Shown here piece by piece: positions 3,465 through 10,232 of a stretch of DNA of 64,000 nucleotides. Origin of the DNA: Hoylesella nanceiensis DSM 19126 = JCM 15639 (lineage in GTDB: Bacteria > Bacteroidota > Bacteroidia > Bacteroidales > Bacteroidaceae); NCBI RefSeq assembly GCF_000379965.1, contig NZ_KB904327.1:310001-374000 (forward strand), in the 5' to 3' direction. Each line of letters opens with the position of its first letter. Within the stretch, counting starts at the first letter, position 1. The translations under genes and the position numbers were made by a program. The notes beneath the pieces are model-generated. The model was not told the DNA's origin and did no database searches. It saw only the letters and a program-made list of their open reading frames with translations.

Positions 3465-4586
3465 ATGGAAAATAGAAAGTTACGCATTGCAATAACTCAT
3501 GGAGATACCAATGGTGTTGGGTATGAAATGATATTAAAAGCATTTACAACTCCTGAGTTATTAGAATTATGTACTCCTATTATATATGGCTCACCAAAGC
3601 TCGCAGCCTATCATTCTAAGGTGTTAGAAATACCAACAAACTTTACAATTATCAACAATGCTCGTGAGGCAACAGATGGAAAAGTGAATCTTCTAACATG
3701 TTTTGATGAAGAAATTAAAGTAGATTTTGCCCACCCTAGTAAAGAGTCTGGTGTTGCAGCGATAAAGGCTTTAGATGCAGCAATAACCGATTATAGAGAG
3801 GGATTGTATGATGTTTTAGTGTCTGCTCCTATCGATAGCGCAAATATTAATGTCGAAGGAGTTCCTTTTAAAGGACTTACTCACTATCTAGAAACTTGTA
3901 TGGGTAAAACAAACGATGCGCTACAAATTTATAGTAATGAGTATTTACGTATTGCAACATTAACAAATTACATTGACATTAAAGATCTTCCCAATTATAT
4001 TACCAAGGAAAATATCATTGAGAAAGTAACTACTTTGCATAAAACCCTACAAAAAGATTATCGTATTTCTTTGCCACGTATTGCTGTGTTATCCCTTAAT
4101 CCAGATGGAAATGGCGAAGAAGAGAAGAATATTATCGCTCCTGCAATAACTCAATTAGCAAGTGAAGGTATTAATGCTTTCGGTCCTTTTGCTGCAGATA
4201 GTTTCTGGGATAATGATGAGTTTGGTATGTTCGATGCTGTTTTAGCCATGTATCACGACCAAGGTATTATTCCTTTAAAGACTTTAGTTCAATCAGACAA
4301 TGTTTTAACTGTGAGTGGTTTACCAATTATATGTACTGCTCCTGCCCTCTTCTCTCCTTTCAATGATGCAGGAGAAGGTATTGTTAATGAGAATTGTTTA
4401 CGACAAGCTATATATCAAGCAATTGATATTTTTAGAAATAGAATTACATTTGAAGAACCTTATGCTAATCCTCTTAAGAAGCTGTATCACGAAAAAAGAG
4501 ATGAAGTAGAAAAGGGACGCTTCTCTAATAACAGACAGAGAGATAATCAAAAGAATTCTCATTCAGAACAGAAAAATGAAGAATAA
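3465..4586 (+). CDS. pdxA: PdxA-like protein, degenerate active site
   Basis: Overall this is a PdxA (4-phosphohydroxy-L-threonine dehydrogenase) homologue of 373 residues: the start (GDTNGVGYE), IIYGSP and the YHDQG motif (His264) match Bacteroidota PdxA. The active site, however, is eroded. Of the three metal-binding histidines known from E. coli PdxA (His166, 211, 266) only the last is visible. The TTH motif reads TNY (168-169), NPHAG is NPDG (212-215) with a short deletion, GHTE is GLTH (137-140), and the RTSxxHGTA stretch is replaced by CTAPALFSPF. There is no frameshift or stop. A working dehydrogenase is doubtful; an altered role is possible. The last 11 bases overlap the next gene, indicating an operon. 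The symbol denotes family only. Confidence 0.8.
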   Translation: MENRKLRIAITHGDTNGVGYEMILKAFTTPELLELCTPIIYGSPKLAAYHSKVLEIPTNFTIINNAREATDGKVNLLTCFDEEIKVDFAHPSKESGVAAIKALDAAITDYREGLYDVLVSAPIDSANINVEGVPFKGLTHYLETCMGKTNDALQIYSNEYLRIATLTNYIDIKDLPNYITKENIIEKVTTLHKTLQKDYRISLPRIAVLSLNPDGNGEEEKNIIAPAITQLASEGINAFGPFAADSFWDNDEFGMFDAVLAMYHDQGIIPLKTLVQSDNVLTVSGLPIICTAPALFSPFNDAGEGIVNENCLRQAIYQAIDIFRNRITFEEPYANPLKKLYHEKRDEVEKGRFSNNRQRDNQKNSHSEQKNEE

Positions 4587-5598
4587 ATACCAAAATTTCT
4601 TTTTTCTATTTGGTGTTACGATATTTGCAATTATGGTGTATAACTTAGGTTTCACCGTAATTGTAAATAATATACGCCATGCCGGTTACTGGTTTTGGCT
4701 TATTTTGGCTTTTTGGTTGGTGTTGTATTTAGGCAATACGCTATCTTGGTATTTAATTATTAAAACAGGAAAGCCTAAAGATAAGGTGGAAAAAATAAAT
4801 TTCTTTTGGCTTTATAAAGTCACTATTTCTGCCTTTTCGCTTAATTATGCCACTCCAGGAGGCTTAATGGGAGGTGAACCTTATCGCATAATGGAACTAA
4901 CCCCCAAGATTGGTACAGAGCGAGCAACATCTTCTGTATTGCTATTTGTAATGACTCATATTTTTAGTCATTTTATATTTTGGCTTTTTGCCATATTTCT
5001 TTTCCTTCTATTTGAATCTTTTTCGTTGCTCGAAGGCAGTGTTGTTGCGATTACAGGAGTCATACTATTATTAGGTATAGCCTTTTTCTTGAAAGCCTAT
5101 AAGTATGGTTTAGCTGTGAAGTTATTGGAACTTTGTAACAAAATTCCTTTGGTAAAACGATATTCTTTGCCTTTTATTGAAAAACATTATGATCAGTTGC
5201 AAAGAATAGACCAACAAATATCTGCACTTAAAAACGAAAATAGATTCACTTTCTTTTCTGTTGTATTTATTGAATTTGTAGGTAGAGTTATTTCTTCTTT
5301 TGAAATAATGTTTATTCTACTTATAGTAAATCCTGAGGTAAGTTTTGTAAAATCATTGATAATTATAGCTTATACTAGTTTAATTGCAAATCTACTTTTC
5401 TTTATGCCTTTACAGCTTGGAGGACGTGAAGGAGGCTTTATTCTGAGTTCAGTCCAACTTGGTTTCTCGGCATCTTCGGGTAGTTTTTTAGCTATTATTG
5501 TAAGAATTAGAGAACTTATATGGACAGGAATTGGGTTGTTGCTTATCAAACTAGATAGAAAGAAGAACATAAAACTCACCAAAGGAAAAGACGATTAA
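4576..5598 (+). CDS. YbhN/UPF0104-type integral membrane protein (flippase-like, LPG-synthase membrane domain)
   Basis: A 340-residue polytopic membrane protein with about eight hydrophobic segments, from residues 8-24 to a last one near 315-330. The glycine-rich cytoplasmic motifs typical of the lysylphosphatidylglycerol synthase membrane-domain family are present: NYATPGGLMGGEPYR near residue 95 and LQLGGREGGF near 280. These families are called flippase-like. No soluble aminoacyl-PG synthase domain is attached, so lipid aminoacylation is not expected. The start overlaps the end of the pdxA-like gene by 11 bases. A small hairpin followed by a T-run lies 33 bases after the stop. The physiological substrate is unknown. 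Confidence 0.8.
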   Translation: MKNKYQNFFFLFGVTIFAIMVYNLGFTVIVNNIRHAGYWFWLILAFWLVLYLGNTLSWYLIIKTGKPKDKVEKINFFWLYKVTISAFSLNYATPGGLMGGEPYRIMELTPKIGTERATSSVLLFVMTHIFSHFIFWLFAIFLFLLFESFSLLEGSVVAITGVILLLGIAFFLKAYKYGLAVKLLELCNKIPLVKRYSLPFIEKHYDQLQRIDQQISALKNENRFTFFSVVFIEFVGRVISSFEIMFILLIVNPEVSFVKSLIIIAYTSLIANLLFFMPLQLGGREGGFILSSVQLGFSASSGSFLAIIVRIRELIWTGIGLLLIKLDRKKNIKLTKGKDD

Positions 5599-5630
5599 AG
5601 ATATAAAGCGCATCTATTTTCTGTTTTTAT

Positions 5631-5652
5631 ATCGATGAAATCGATCTTTTTT
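5631..5652 (+). terminator. Short intrinsic terminator after the YbhN-like gene
   Basis: ATCGAT, loop GAA, ATCGAT (5631-5645), then C and six Ts. The stem is short, so this is a moderate call; it ends the rlmN-pdxA-ybhN unit. Confidence 0.45.
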
Positions 5653-5677
5653 ATTTGCTTGATATCCTGTTATCACC

Positions 5678-5765
5678 CTTTGCAGAATATAAAAGCATCT
5701 CTTTTATAGATTAAAAGTAATGTTATTACAGTGTAAAAGCAACGTAATTATTCGGTAAAAACAAT
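5678..5765 (-). repeat. 22-bp periodic direct repeat array A (4 units, minus orientation)
   Basis: Read on the minus strand, four units begin at 5765, 5743, 5721 and 5699, each exactly 22 bases apart. The cores are ATTGTTTTTA, GTTGCTTTTA, ATTACTTTTA and GATGCTTTTA; the other 12 bases differ. It lies in the 387-base convergent gap between the YbhN-like gene and pdxT, 150 bases past the pdxT terminator hairpin. Apart from the terminators I see nothing else in this gap. Confidence 0.65.
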
Positions 5766-5915
5766 GCTTTTATAATATTATGTTGATAGGAAAATATTTA
5801 ACTGGGATTACTTTTATTCTCTTTTAAAAGCTTATTCCAATATATAAAGGATAGTAAGTATAACTCAAAAATAAAGATTTCATCGTTTTTTTGAGTATAA
5901 TCTCTGTAAAGAAAA

Positions 5916-5953
5916 GAGGTTAATAAATAAGTTTGACCTTATTTATTAACCTC
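5916..5953 (-). terminator. Intrinsic terminator of the pdxST operon
   Basis: A perfect 16-bp inverted repeat (5916-5931 with 5938-5953) and a 6-base loop, 32 bases past the pdxT stop. On the minus strand it is followed by TTTTCTTT. The stem could also stop rightward transcription. Confidence 0.8.
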
Positions 5954-5985
5954 AATAACTTTATTATATCGTATGAATTACTGTC

Positions 5986-6564
5986 TTATTTCACCATTTG
6001 TTCTAAGAAATAAGCATGAATACTAGAGTCATTTCCTAGTTCAGGATGGAAAGATGTAACCAATTGATTTGCTTGCTTGGCTGCAACAATATGGCCATCA
6101 ACCTCTGCTAACACCTCCACATCTTTTCCTACAGATTTGATATAAGGTGCTCGTATGAATGTCATAAGGAAGCTATCCGATACATATTTCATCTTTTCGT
6201 TGGTCTCAAAAGAACCTAATTGACGTCCATATGCGTTACGAACAACCTCAATATCCATTGTTGCAATACGTTGAACATCACTCTCTCCCACTACATTTTG
6301 AGCAAGAAGTATAAGTCCTGCGCATGTACCAAATACGGGTAAACCGTTAGATATTGCAGTTTGAATGTCGTTCAACAAATCGAGTTCGTGTAGAAGTTTT
6401 ATCATTGTGGTGCTTTCTCCACCAGGGATAATTAGTCCGTCTTTATGTTGTTGCCAGTCTTCTTTCTTGCGAATTTCAAATACTTCAACGTCACCAAGAC
6501 TTTTAATCATCTCCTCGTGCTCAATAAAAGCACCTTGAAGGGCTAGAACTGCAATTTTTTTCAT
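5986..6564 (-). CDS. pdxT: Pyridoxal 5'-phosphate synthase glutaminase subunit PdxT
   Basis: PdxT hydrolyses glutamine and channels ammonia to PdxS for direct synthesis of pyridoxal 5'-phosphate. The 192-residue product is full length with an intact class I amidotransferase triad: nucleophile Cys81 in GTCAGLILL, and His173 and Glu175 in FHPEL. The oxyanion motif PGGESTT (47-53) is present. Its start overlaps the pdxS stop by 4 bases, so translation is probably coupled. It is the last gene of the three-gene B6 operon and is followed by a strong terminator. Confidence 0.97.
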
Positions 6565-7436
6565 TTGCCTCTTTCAGCCATTAACAACTCAATCTCTTGC
6601 TCGTTGATACCAACCATAGCTTCGCCTAAATCTTCAGAGAGCTCTGCAATCATCTTAGCGTCTTTATAGTTAGTAACAGCTTTCACAATTGCAGCAGCAC
6701 GTTTCTCTGGATTTCCGCTCTTGAAGATACCACTTCCAACGAATACGCCTTCTGCTCCTAGTTGCATCATCAATGCTGCGTCTGCAGGAGTTGCAACACC
6801 ACCAGCAGCAAAATTAACAACAGGTAGCTTACCATTGTCGTGAACATACTTCACCAACTCATAAGGAGATTGTAGTTGTTTTGTTGCTTCGAATAACTCA
6901 CCTTCAGTTAATGAAACGATACGGCGAATCTCACTTTGCATCATACGCATGTGACGTACTGCCTGAATGATATCTCCTGTTCCAGGTTCTCCTTTGGTTC
7001 TAATCATAGTTGCACCTTCTGCTATTCTGCGAAGAGCTTCTCCTAAGTCTTTAGCACCACAAACAAAGGGAACTGTAAAGTCGTTTTTGTTGATGTGATA
7101 GATGTTATCTGCTGGTGAAAGTACTTCACTTTCGTCGATATAATCTATTTCAATTGCTTGAAGTATTTGAGCTTCTGCAAAATGGCCAATACGGCATTTC
7201 GCCATAACAGGAATACTAACAACTTCTTGTATGCTCTTAATCATCTTTGGATCGCTCATACGTGCAACACCACCAGCAGCTCTAATGTCTGCAGGAATAC
7301 GTTCTAGTGCCATAACTGCACATGCACCTGCAGCTTCAGCAATACGTGCTTGTTCAGGAGTTGTTACGTCCATAATAACTCCACCTTTTAGCATTTGAGC
7401 TAAATTTCGATTAAGATTTTGTCTGTTTTCTTTCAT
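6561..7436 (-). CDS. pdxS: Pyridoxal 5'-phosphate synthase lyase subunit PdxS
   Basis: PdxS condenses ribose 5-phosphate, glyceraldehyde 3-phosphate and ammonia into PLP as a dodecamer with PdxT. The 291-residue TIM barrel keeps the key residues: Asp in VIMDVTT, the Schiff-base Lys in [10 protein letters not shown], the second Lys in [11 protein letters not shown] and the phosphate-binding [10 protein letters not shown] region. It lies 10 bases after the regulator-like gene and overlaps pdxT by 4 bases. Functional on sequence grounds. Confidence 0.97.
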
Positions 7437-7446
7437 AATTCAATAT

Positions 7447-8445
7447 TTATTTTTTCTTTCTAAAATTACTTGGGGGAACTCCTACTTTCTTTTTAAAGAA
7501 CTTCGTGAAATGTGCTTGTGATGAAAAGCCATTTCGATAGGCTATCTCTTGAATAGTAGAAAAAGAATTCTGTAAATCAAGTTCTATCTGTTCTATAAGA
7601 TAATCTTCTATAATGGTTTTGGGAGTTTTGTTGCTAACGGCCTTTGTTACCTGTGATAAATATCGACTGCTTACATTGAATAAGTCGGAATAGAAGCGTA
7701 CGTCACGATTGTCTTTGTAATATTTCGACACGGCATCTATAAACTCTTGGTATAAAAGGTTGATACGCTCGGAAACTACTCTCTTTTCCTTTTCTTTCTC
7801 AGCAGCAAACAAATAGGCATTATTAATGGCATCTTCAAGAGAATTATTCTTGCTTAAATAAGATGCAACAGCTGAAGAAAAATAGTTATTTTTTCCGTGG
7901 AAGAAACTGTCTACCAATACAACTTCTTTGCAACCAAAGGCTTTTAATTGTGCAATTGCTTTCTGTTTATCCTCGTTAGACTCAATGGTTATGCCTAAAA
8001 TATATTCTGCATCGATATTTCTTATAACGACAATAGTTGACAATGGCAATAAGCGATTCTTTATTTGAGATATGACATCTCGGCTCATAAGCTCATCACC
8101 ATTACTAGAATAAACAATTGGATTGTATATAACAGATTGTATGTTATATTTGGAAACCATATCGCAAATGACCTTTAAGACATTTACATTTCGAATCATA
8201 CCAAGCTTTAATATCTTTGCTTGGGTATCGTTTACAAGTGCTTCGATTTGCGCTTCGATGATATTTGATGGCAGATCGAAGAATTCTTGAATACCCAAAG
8301 TGTTCTGAACCGTAATACTTGTTATCACGGAAACAGATGGAATTCCTAGTGCTTCAAATACCTTTATGTCGGCTTGTATGCCTGAAGTACCAGTGCCATC
8401 AGAACCTGTTATTGTTAAAACTGGTGTTAGTTTGTTGTCTATCAT
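7447..8445 (-). CDS. ThiD/PdxK-like domain fused to AraC-type DNA-binding domain; candidate B6 regulator
   Basis: The N-terminal part (residues 8-216) aligns with hydroxymethylpyrimidine/pyridoxal kinases of the ThiD/PdxY family: LTITGSDGTGTSGIQAD at 10-26, the LGM motif at 81-83 and NIDAEYIL at 143-150. The C-terminal part (about 236-330) is a two-HTH AraC/XylS domain ending in FKKKVGVPPSNFRKK. The catalytic GTGC anion-hole loop of ThiD is absent. In its place is HGKNNYFSSA (183-192), and about 30 residues of the preceding ATP-binding region are missing, so kinase activity is unlikely while the vitamer pocket may persist. It is the first gene of the operon with pdxS and pdxT. I infer a transcriptional regulator sensing a B6 vitamer; HMP is the alternative ligand. 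Confidence 0.8.
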   Translation of the reverse strand: MIDNKLTPVLTITGSDGTGTSGIQADIKVFEALGIPSVSVITSITVQNTLGIQEFFDLPSNIIEAQIEALVNDTQAKILKLGMIRNVNVLKVICDMVSKYNIQSVIYNPIVYSSNGDELMSRDVISQIKNRLLPLSTIVVIRNIDAEYILGITIESNEDKQKAIAQLKAFGCKEVVLVDSFFHGKNNYFSSAVASYLSKNNSLEDAINNAYLFAAEKEKEKRVVSERINLLYQEFIDAVSKYYKDNRDVRFYSDLFNVSSRYLSQVTKAVSNKTPKTIIEDYLIEQIELDLQNSFSTIQEIAYRNGFSSQAHFTKFFKKKVGVPPSNFRKKK

Positions 8446-8486
8446 AAGATATCAACTACAAAGTAAGTTATTTTTATCGAGAAAAA

Positions 8487-8525
8487 AAAATGATGTTCCC
8501 TTATAGACAAAGAAAACACCATTTT
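8487..8525 (-). terminator. Intrinsic terminator after the amylase gene
   Basis: On the minus strand, AAAATGGTGTT (8525-8515) pairs with AACATCATTTT (8497-8487) with one mismatch, followed by a run of Ts. It closes the fabD-amylase unit, 22 bases past the amylase stop. Confidence 0.65.
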
Positions 8526-8546
8526 GTATAAATCATTTTATGAACC

Positions 8547-10232
8547 TTATAAGATAAACTTATAAACTCTAGCACCATAAGGGTCGATTCCCACTTTGAA
8601 TGGCTTCTCAGGAGAGAACATTTGGAAAGTGGTTTCACCTGTTAATAAATCAACAGCATTTACTTGTCCTTCTGATAATGAAAGATGTTCAAAAGCGTGT
8701 CGAGGAATATTAATAGCACATTGCATTTCTAAGTCTGAGAAGTTAGCAACAACCAATAGCACCTCTTGCTTATATGCACGAATGAAAGCATATAAAGAGT
8801 TAGAATTGAAGTTAGATGTCAATGGATTGGCGTACATCAAATCGAAGAAGGAACCCACTGAAACAACTTTCTCTTTGCTCGCAATGCGTAGTATGGCATT
8901 ATACTTATCCCATATTACTTTTTCTTGAGCTGTTAATGCATTCTTTTTATAATAACCTCTATAAAGTTTATCAATTCCCCAGTAATCAAAGATAGTTGTT
9001 CTTCCATCTCTTCCACTGAATCCTTCTGCATCCATTCCTGGTTCACCTAACTCTTGTCCTGCATAAAGCATAAAAGGATTGGATAATAATAAAGAGCTGA
9101 CAACAACTCCAGGGAATCCTTTTTCTGCATCATTTGCAAAGAAAGGAGACGCAATTCGTTGCTCATCATGATTCTCTAGGAAATAAAGCATCTTATTCTT
9201 TATATGATCGGTAGCTTGCCATTGCTTGGTAATTTCTGTAGGCTTTCTTGTTCCTGCGATAACACCTCTTACGCAATCGTACATTCCTACCTTATCATAT
9301 AGATAGTCGAATCCACTTTGTATATAAGTATCATACAATGAAGGATTATAGACTTCACCAATAAAAAGAATATATGGGAATTCGTTCTTTACTTCTTTTA
9401 TAGCGTAAGTCCAGAATGCTGATGGAACCATTTCTGCCATATCACATCTAAATCCATCAACTCCTTTTCTAGCCCAGAATAGAAGTATGTCGGTCATCTT
9501 CTTCCAAGTAGAAGGAATAGGATCAAAATGTTCTGTATGTTCGCCGCATGGATTGCAATAATCTACACCATAATTAAGTTTAATGGTTTCATACCAATCA
9601 TCTTTATTGGGTGCATTATCAAAGCGATCATTGCCCGTAGCTTTTGCTGGTTGCTCAAAATAAGTTGTGTCTGTAGCTTCAGAATACAAACTAAAAGTTG
9701 GAGCAAAAGAAAGCCCATTACAATAATAAAAGTTATTGTTGGTATCGAAATTCTTGGTGGTGTTATCGTTTTCACCTAAATCTTCGACTCCTTCTGGTTT
9801 TGTTATTGATTTGTATTGGCGTGCTACATGGTTGGGGACAAAATCTATAATGGTTTTTAAACCAACCTTACTTGTTCGAGAAAGAAGAGCTTCGAACTCT
9901 TGCATTCTGTCTGGAACGTTTTCTGCTAAATCTGGATCTACATCATAGTAATCGACAATCGCATATGGAGAACCTGCCTTACCTTTTACAATTGCTGGAT
10001 GTTGTGTAGGAATTCCATACTCTTCGTATGAAGTTGTGCTTGCGTGTCTAATTATTCCGGTATACCAAACATGGGTACATCCCATGCTTTTAATGCGTTT
10101 CAGGGTTGATGTATTAAAGTCATTCATTTTACCAACGCCATTTTCGGTAATCGAACCATTGACTATATTATTGTGATTGCGATTACCGAAAAGGCGAGTA
10201 AAGACTTGATAAATAATTAATTTCTTATTCAC
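8547..10232 (-). CDS. Cytoplasmic GH13 alpha-amylase family enzyme
   Basis: A 561-residue glycoside hydrolase family 13 protein acting on alpha-glucans. The barrel motifs are visible in order: IIDFVPNHV (conserved region I), DGFRCDMAEM with the nucleophile Asp (region II), FIGEVYNP with the acid/base Glu (region III) and LENHDEQR with the transition-state Asp (region IV). A small beta-sandwich follows. There is no signal peptide, unlike the secreted SusG-type amylases, so it probably acts on intracellular glycogen or imported maltodextrins. It lies 34 bases after fabD and may be co-transcribed. Exact specificity cannot be read from the sequence. Confidence 0.9.
   Translation of the reverse strand: MNKKLIIYQVFTRLFGNRNHNNIVNGSITENGVGKMNDFNTSTLKRIKSMGCTHVWYTGIIRHASTTSYEEYGIPTQHPAIVKGKAGSPYAIVDYYDVDPDLAENVPDRMQEFEALLSRTSKVGLKTIIDFVPNHVARQYKSITKPEGVEDLGENDNTTKNFDTNNNFYYCNGLSFAPTFSLYSEATDTTYFEQPAKATGNDRFDNAPNKDDWYETIKLNYGVDYCNPCGEHTEHFDPIPSTWKKMTDILLFWARKGVDGFRCDMAEMVPSAFWTYAIKEVKNEFPYILFIGEVYNPSLYDTYIQSGFDYLYDKVGMYDCVRGVIAGTRKPTEITKQWQATDHIKNKMLYFLENHDEQRIASPFFANDAEKGFPGVVVSSLLLSNPFMLYAGQELGEPGMDAEGFSGRDGRTTIFDYWGIDKLYRGYYKKNALTAQEKVIWDKYNAILRIASKEKVVSVGSFFDLMYANPLTSNFNSNSLYAFIRAYKQEVLLVVANFSDLEMQCAINIPRHAFEHLSLSEGQVNAVDLLTGETTFQMFSPEKPFKVGIDPYGARVYKFIL

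Follow-up and report, generated by a model that had tools for sequence, protein, structure and literature searches.

The window analysed here is a 64,000-nt stretch of Hoylesella nanceiensis DSM 19126 = JCM 15639 (assembly GCF_000379965.1, contig NZ_KB904327.1, positions 310,001 to 374,000 of the forward strand; GTDB lineage Bacteria; Bacteroidota; Bacteroidia; Bacteroidales; Bacteroidaceae). At 7447..8445 on the minus strand, an open reading frame with an ATG start encodes a 332-aa protein in which a ThiD-derived pseudokinase domain is fused to an AraC-type DNA-binding domain. It is the first gene of an operon and is followed after 10 bases by pdxS (6561..7436, minus strand), encoding the lyase subunit of PLP synthase (TIGR00343, 495 bits; cut-off 438). 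The end of pdxS overlaps by 4 bases with pdxT (5986..6564, minus strand), encoding the glutaminase subunit (TIGR03800, 226.5 bits; cut-off 105.6). The ORF coordinates agree with an earlier sequence-only reading of this DNA, which had placed the fusion gene 10 bases from pdxS at the head of pdxS-pdxT. A putative operator lies just upstream of the fusion gene and is described below. An alpha-amylase-family gene (8547-10232, minus strand) lies immediately upstream of the operon, an order repeated in G136 (L047) and L115. Elsewhere in the window, a PdxA-family gene (3465-4586, plus strand; PF04166, 272 bits) has no operator nearby; PdxA belongs to the DXP-dependent B6 route, and the host genome is without PdxJ.

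Pfam places Phos_pyr_kin (PF08543) at residues 16-177 of the fusion protein with 155.7 bits, well over the gathering score, in a match that spans only profile positions 1-161 of 246. HTH_18 (PF12833) was found at residues 253-330 with 64.8 bits (cut-off 33.6), and HTH_AraC was also matched. The AraC-type domain occupies residues 240-330 (7456..7728, minus strand), has two helix-turn-helices, and is complete, as had been proposed, since the HTH_18 match covers profile positions 2-79 of 80. The family profile of the fusion matches AraC-family DNA-binding domains of solved structure, and the best solved relatives of the kinase part by sequence profile are 7r8y, 4jjp, 7l07, 8g1h, and 1ub0. The kept portion of the kinase is the substrate-side half of the ThiD fold (residues 8-140; 8026..8424, minus strand), with the GSD and QAD motifs, T45, Q47, and K80-x-G82. 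Residues 183-187 (7885..7899, minus strand) read HGKNN in place of the ThiD catalytic loop HGTGC, and the HGTGC helix of ThiD has its aligned counterpart in the remnant HGKNNYFSSAVASYL. The KGGH...D...NT stretch of real ThiDs is absent before residue 183, and TPN has become VIR. The sequence-only reading, that the ThiD-like part lacks the GTGC loop and the preceding ATP-binding stretch and keeps the substrate-side motifs, is thus borne out on both counts.

We compared 94 fusions (the window, 79 of the 80 named loci, with L134 left out as cut by its contig, and 14 of 22 family-draw genomes), some of which are near-copies. None retains the cysteine of GTGC, which is replaced by Asn in 76, Gly in 12, and Ser in 6; the threonine of GTGC, the proline of TPN, and the lysine of KGGH are likewise each found in 0/94, and the GGH stretch is gapped in 83/94. 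Ten residues are invariant in all 94: D16, G22, D26, T45, Q47, Q66, K80, G82, H183, and G184. ThiD-invariant columns, defined as those with the same residue in at least 25 of 26 reference ThiDs, are retained in at least 90% of fusions at 20 of 37 positions in the N half and 5 of 29 in the C half, so that the N half is also not untouched. The reference ThiDs were chosen for GTGC and GSD and therefore score 26/26 in those two motifs by selection; the other motifs are unaffected.

The strong PF08543 match could be read as an active pyridoxal or HMP kinase that merely carries an AraC domain. This is hardly credible, however, because the catalytic cysteine, the GTGC loop, TPN, and KGGH are lost, the TIGR00097 (ThiD) score of 158.3 bits falls below the cut-off of 204.95, and the host genome has a separate pyridoxamine kinase (L141, NF005491; 251.6 bits versus a cut-off of 231). 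We rejected an active kinase on the missing catalytic residues. By its domains the window protein is a member of the AraC/XylS family, and by cut-off and catalytic residues it is not a ThiD. The fusion genes nevertheless match a thiamine-kinase family while lacking its catalytic loop, and genomes that carry them could be wrongly credited with an HMP kinase, which is a warning for annotation. The other PF08543 match of the host genome is an NAD(P)H-hydrate dehydratase/epimerase (L142), with TIGR00196 and TIGR00197 over cut-off. A ThiD paralogue in another genome (L194:117-989, G013) has GTGD for GTGC and Glu for a ThiD-invariant Gln and passes the TIGR00097 cut-off.

The kinase-like part has dN/dS values of 0.018 to 0.137; the ratio was computable in 14 of 15 close pairs, some of them with saturated dS. 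A decaying gene was rejected on these low values and on the wide spread of intact copies. Further, both domains are present in 71/71 family members scanned, window included, which together with the low dN/dS indicates neither a chance fusion nor a single decayed gene. The length of the kinase-like domain varies: among the 83 fusions in our tree, 11 are full-length, 30 are of the middle type seen in the window, and 42 are short. The shortest fusion seen, 258 aa in G567 (L211:75-851), retains GSD, QAD, VQ, K-x-G, and HGQAN; it is also without the D-P-V...G-D-L stretch of the kinase fold. Such repeated shortening would fit a ligand-free dimerisation scaffold, in which case the protein would activate pdxST constitutively or under some other control, and ribokinase-fold enzymes do often dimerise. 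We consider this improbable, because the shortening spares the pocket motifs GSD, QAD, VQ, K-x-G, and HG, which are under purifying selection. If the domain is instead a ligand-binding pseudokinase, its size series is a natural deletion series that may tell which part of the enzyme suffices for sensing.

A scan of named genomes gave 527 candidates, and the best 80 all hold ThiD-AraC fusions. Their hosts are Prevotella, Segatella, Hoylesella, Leyella, Phocaeicola oris, and unnamed Bacteroidales (one locus, L134, is cut by its contig), and the carrier species include Segatella copri, S. buccae, Prevotella denticola, and P. histicola. In a draw of 151 genomes from the same family, the closest full-length relatives of the window protein are 48 to 52% identical to it. 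A phylum draw of 395 genomes, scored for at most five candidates per genome, showed a full-length fusion only in the window genome among the matches listed; the other listed matches are to the ThiD part. A tree built on the N-terminal part separates the fusions, as a single group, from 26 Bacteroidota ThiDs (SH-aLRT 98; 109 rows after 11 near-copies or odd rows were dropped, by a quick method on few columns). Because the fusions group apart from the ThiDs, which are their neighbours in the tree, a single origin is likely.

The association with PLP synthase seen in the window recurs across these genomes. In 73 of the best 80 named loci, pdxS and pdxT lie downstream of the fusion gene on the same strand; the distance to pdxS is at most 212 nt in 67 of these 73, and the fusion gene and pdxS overlap by 4 nt in 7. 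In the family draw, PdxS was found in 26 of 151 genomes and the fusion beside it in 22 of these (with fusion gene and pdxS in divergent orientation in G060). The remaining four PdxS genomes (G013, G140, G025, and G051) have no fusion in the 8 to 9 kb around pdxS, and none of the 125 genomes without PdxS shows a fusion among the matches listed (Fisher test, 1e-22, uncorrected for kinship). Similarly, among 120 genomes drawn from the genus, 53 carry the fusion and 56 carry PdxS, and none has the fusion without PdxS. The threshold of 1e-70 used for this draw can miss short fusions; indeed G567, whose short form falls below the threshold and whose operator is present, makes a 54th fusion genome. 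In two other PdxS genomes, G639 and G655, there is no fusion at 1e-70, no operator match, and no fusion ORF in the stretch upstream of pdxS.

In seven of the 80 loci pdxS is missing next to the fusion gene; five of the seven genomes carry it elsewhere: L095, L103, and L110, which are labelled Segatella copri, L108, a near-copy of these, and L111. No PdxS was found in the genomes of the other two, L084 and L116, yet they keep both the fusion and the operator; these may be incomplete assemblies or cases in which the target has changed. In L084 and L116 the gene after the fusion resembles, by eye, a response-regulator/anti-sigma protein. In L073, pdxS is interrupted at about 3959-4829 (three tblastn pieces) despite fusion and operator, perhaps through a sequencing error.

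The upstream regions of the fusion genes have in common a 46-bp element, TTnTACAAAnTGnnGTTTTCTTTGTCAAAAnGGGAACAnnATTTTn, which we take as a putative operator. A matrix was built from 72 upstream regions (the 80 loci minus L134, L126, L073, and six near-copies, plus the window). With this matrix, the window site (8486..8531, minus strand) scores 52.7 bits, the second-best place in the 64 kb scores 7.8, and shuffled upstream regions reach at most 2.1. Columns within the element carry 1.02 bits of information each versus 0.07 in the flank (62 loci). The element contains two half-sites 21 bp apart; direct repetition is best at 21 bp among shifts of 10 to 33 (z 4.2), and there is also an imperfect dyad centred on operator position 26, the test against a null covering the 21-bp direct repeat only. 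In 70 of the 80 loci, the fusion gene or pdxS is preceded by a site of at least 20.9 bits (L073 being counted as having its site upstream of the fusion gene), and no site of at least 10 bits occurs elsewhere in the 566,009 bases of all 80 loci.

The element lies next to sequences that we read by the -33/-7 promoter consensus. In the window the -7 box is TTACTTTG (8459..8466, minus strand), and its TTTG begins 23 nt past the end of the operator. The same spacing of 23 nt (68 sites) or 24 nt (16 sites) is found in all 84 sites that reach 15 bits among 94 sequences examined. The -33 position coincides with the last 4 bp of the operator (8486..8489, minus strand), which read TTTT here; TTTG is present at this position in 24 of 65 distinct sites, of which 18 end in it and 6 have it one base earlier. 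The ATG lies 13 nt past the -7 box in the window and 4 nt past it in L059 and L061.

An RNA leader, such as a riboswitch or attenuator, would be a different explanation of the element, and one clade has outer arms that could base-pair (ATGATGTT/AACATCAT), with T's after them. These arms are not conserved across the family, however, and no Rfam match was found at E<=1 in 5400-9000. In addition, the -7 box lies downstream of the element in 84/84 and the ATG follows so closely that the element would not be transcribed from this promoter; in the window it would lie upstream of the transcript. An RNA leader is therefore very improbable, and we rejected a riboswitch on the position of the -7 box and the Rfam result.

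The layout also bears on the direction of control. Tandem half-sites 21 bp apart, of which the promoter-proximal one abuts the -33 position, with a mostly imperfect -33 box, are the class II activation layout of AraC-type proteins. Repression of pdxST by the fusion protein, with B6 as co-repressor, is a common kind of end-product control, and the operator does end at the -33 position. Against this, the half-sites stand in tandem at fixed spacing just upstream of -33 rather than across the -7 box or the start, which is where AraC proteins sit as activators, and the -33 TTTG is imperfect in most sites, which is what a promoter dependent on an activator should show. From the position of the site, the fusion protein probably activates, and repression seems unlikely.

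We also searched whole genomes with an operator model, R1, trained on 45 of the 65 distinct sites and including sites of the S. copri type. In the H. nanceiensis genome it matches only the site described here at E<=0.05 (E 4.6e-9). In the 151 genomes of the family draw, the fusion-pdxST operon accounts for the strongest matches; among the others, the flanking genes of five were read. Many of the training sites come from genomes that were later searched, so the matches indicate that few other sites exist rather than being independent finds. As candidates for further regulon members, matches at 1.1e-4 in G032 and G109, away from recognisable B6 genes, were rejected and taken as chance.

Genomes in which pdxS is separated from the fusion gene show which of the two the element follows. 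In 5/5 unlinked genomes, which amount to about two lineages, the element lies upstream of pdxS (22.2 to 40.9 bits) and is absent upstream of the fusion gene, where the best score in the locus is -7.9 or lower. Seven further loci have a spacer of 136 to 1144 nt between the fusion gene and pdxS; here too the element lies upstream of pdxS (24.8 to 36.4 bits), and none is found upstream of the fusion gene (-7.5 or lower). These 12 pdxS-side sites were kept out of matrix building, and they are not 12 independent lineages. Conversely, four pdxST loci without a fusion have no element, with scores of at most 1.2 bits. The putative operator thus tracks pdxST and not the regulator gene.

There are exceptions. 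No recognisable site was found in L118, L128, L132, or L133, each of which has a fusion, adjoining pdxST, and an assessable promoter, and a basal clade (G023, G049, G060, and G106) has at most the promoter-near half-site. We also picked by eye 11 fusion-bearing genomes of the genus draw with unlinked or displaced pdxS. The model matches at pdxS in G588, G607, and G591; G588 and G607 had already entered the count as L137 and L122, respectively, and the site in G591 is similar to that of S. copri. G663 has a match at pdxS (20.0 bits) with its fusion gene 509 kb away, and G644 has a match at the fusion gene. At E<=0.05 no match was found at pdxS or the fusion gene in G606, G630, G564, G621, G548, or G552. 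Matrix scores upstream of pdxS are 18.3 in G644, 10.1 in G621, 9.1 in G663, 2.2 in G630, -1.2 in G552, and -5.0 in G564; in G606 and G548 the best site of the stretch is away from the pdxS promoter. Several displaced-pdxS promoters keep GGAA(C) and the boxes by eye and were not counted as evidence.

Taken together, the co-occurrence, the operon position, and a conserved operator that tracks unlinked pdxST lend strong support to the earlier proposal that the fusion protein regulates pdxST. We consider it quite probable that the protein is an AraC-type regulator of pdxST whose pseudokinase domain binds a ligand, with DNA binding at the operator predicted from sequence comparison. The ligand itself is suggested by pocket conservation and by the target genes, which point to a B6 vitamer as the likely choice, in line with the B6-vitamer sensor that the sequence-only reading had proposed. 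ThiC, ThiD, and PdxJ were all not found in the H. nanceiensis genome, leaving PdxST as the only way to new PLP recognised there, which speaks for a B6 vitamer without showing it. The retained pocket residues are common to ThiDs and HMP kinases and alone cannot tell pyridoxal from HMP, and comparison with the GTGD-bearing ThiD paralogue L194 did not separate the two. A plasmid search for a pyridoxal-kinase comparator gave none among 40 of 393 records listed.

Alternatively, the regulator could use the ThiD pocket to sense a pyrimidine, HMP or another, and so link B6 synthesis to thiamine status. Q47, T45, and D26, invariant in 94/94, and GSD are ThiD-type residues, Q47 and D26 presumably being the equivalents of HMP-contacting residues in crystal structures of ThiD, and the tree neighbours of the fusion domain are ThiDs. 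Yet a genome with neither ThiC nor ThiD cannot use these enzymes to make or activate HMP, the fusion co-occurs with PdxS, and the strongest operator matches of the family draw, in which the neighbours of five other matches were read, belong to the fusion-pdxST operon. A pyrimidine ligand accordingly appears quite improbable.

For a regulator that senses a B6 vitamer, we propose the following mechanism. The ligand domain would be a former ThiD kinase that has lost ATP binding and catalysis and kept its vitamin pocket. Two DNA-binding domains would sit on the pair of half-sites, spaced 21 bp, that immediately precedes the promoter of the operon of regulator, pdxS, and pdxT; the promoter-proximal domain would lie against the -33 position, and the sigma factor would thereby be helped (class II activation). 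When a B6 vitamer is plentiful, pyridoxal or PLP would fill the old substrate pocket and turn activation off, and PLP synthase and the regulator itself would both fall. The ligand is cast as an off-switch by analogy with PdxR, which regulates pdxST, activates as the apo-protein, and has PLP as its anti-activator (PMC5320631); we lean only slightly toward this direction of the switch.

More tentatively, and with a little less than even confidence, we suggest that this is lineage-wide B6 control in Prevotella-type bacteria. A ThiD captured once and stripped of its ATP half would read PLP directly, its 5'-phosphate lying at the former GTGC site that once held the transferred phosphate (HG-x-x-N in most), as a dedicated activator of pdxST that acts in trans in Segatella copri. 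If so, the forms that survive (full-length, 332 aa, about 295 aa, and 258 aa) show how small a part of an enzyme is enough for a sensor.

The fusion protein resembles several known systems in part. With ThiD (PF08543, TIGR00097) it shares the fold family and the substrate-side motifs, but it differs from ThiD in being fused to an AraC domain, in lacking the catalytic cysteine and the ATP-side motifs, and in scoring under the TIGR00097 cut-off. AraC/XylS activators have the same order of ligand domain, linker, and double helix-turn-helix, and their tandem half-sites next to -33/-35, as in the araI layout, parallel the putative ones 21 bp apart here; their usual ligand domain is a cupin, whereas the putative ligand domain of the fusion is a ThiD-type kinase fold. 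ThiR proteins, reportedly ThiN-domain transcriptional repressors of archaeal thiamine genes described in a 2017 paper, are alike in that an enzyme domain from a vitamin pathway has become part of a transcription factor acting on that pathway, although the enzyme, the helix-turn-helix, and the vitamin are all different.

A further parallel is PdxR of the MocR family, a pdxST regulator that also has an enzyme-fold sensor domain. The two differ in build: PdxR/MocR joins a GntR helix-turn-helix to an aminotransferase fold, and the fusion joins AraC to a ThiD fold. The sequence-only reading had drawn this contrast, and neither PdxR domain is among the Pfam/NCBIfam matches of the fusion. PdxR is named as a B6 regulator in PMC9997740 and PMC6593275, in whose main texts a term search did not find AraC, and the main text of PMC5320631, which treats three Bacteroidetes lineages, yielded neither AraC nor Prevotella to the same kind of search. 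Among the titles listed from the open literature, which covers few subscription journals, none concerned a ThiD/AraC or pyridoxal-kinase/AraC fusion. What appears new is the combination of a putative enzyme-derived sensor on an AraC regulator, a newly described candidate operator, and a taxonomic range of its own. The regulators of PLP synthesis named in the main texts of PMC9997740, PMC6593275, and PMC5320631 are MocR-type; if our reading is correct, bacteria of the gut, rumen, and mouth would have a separate, as yet unnamed regulator of B6 synthesis.
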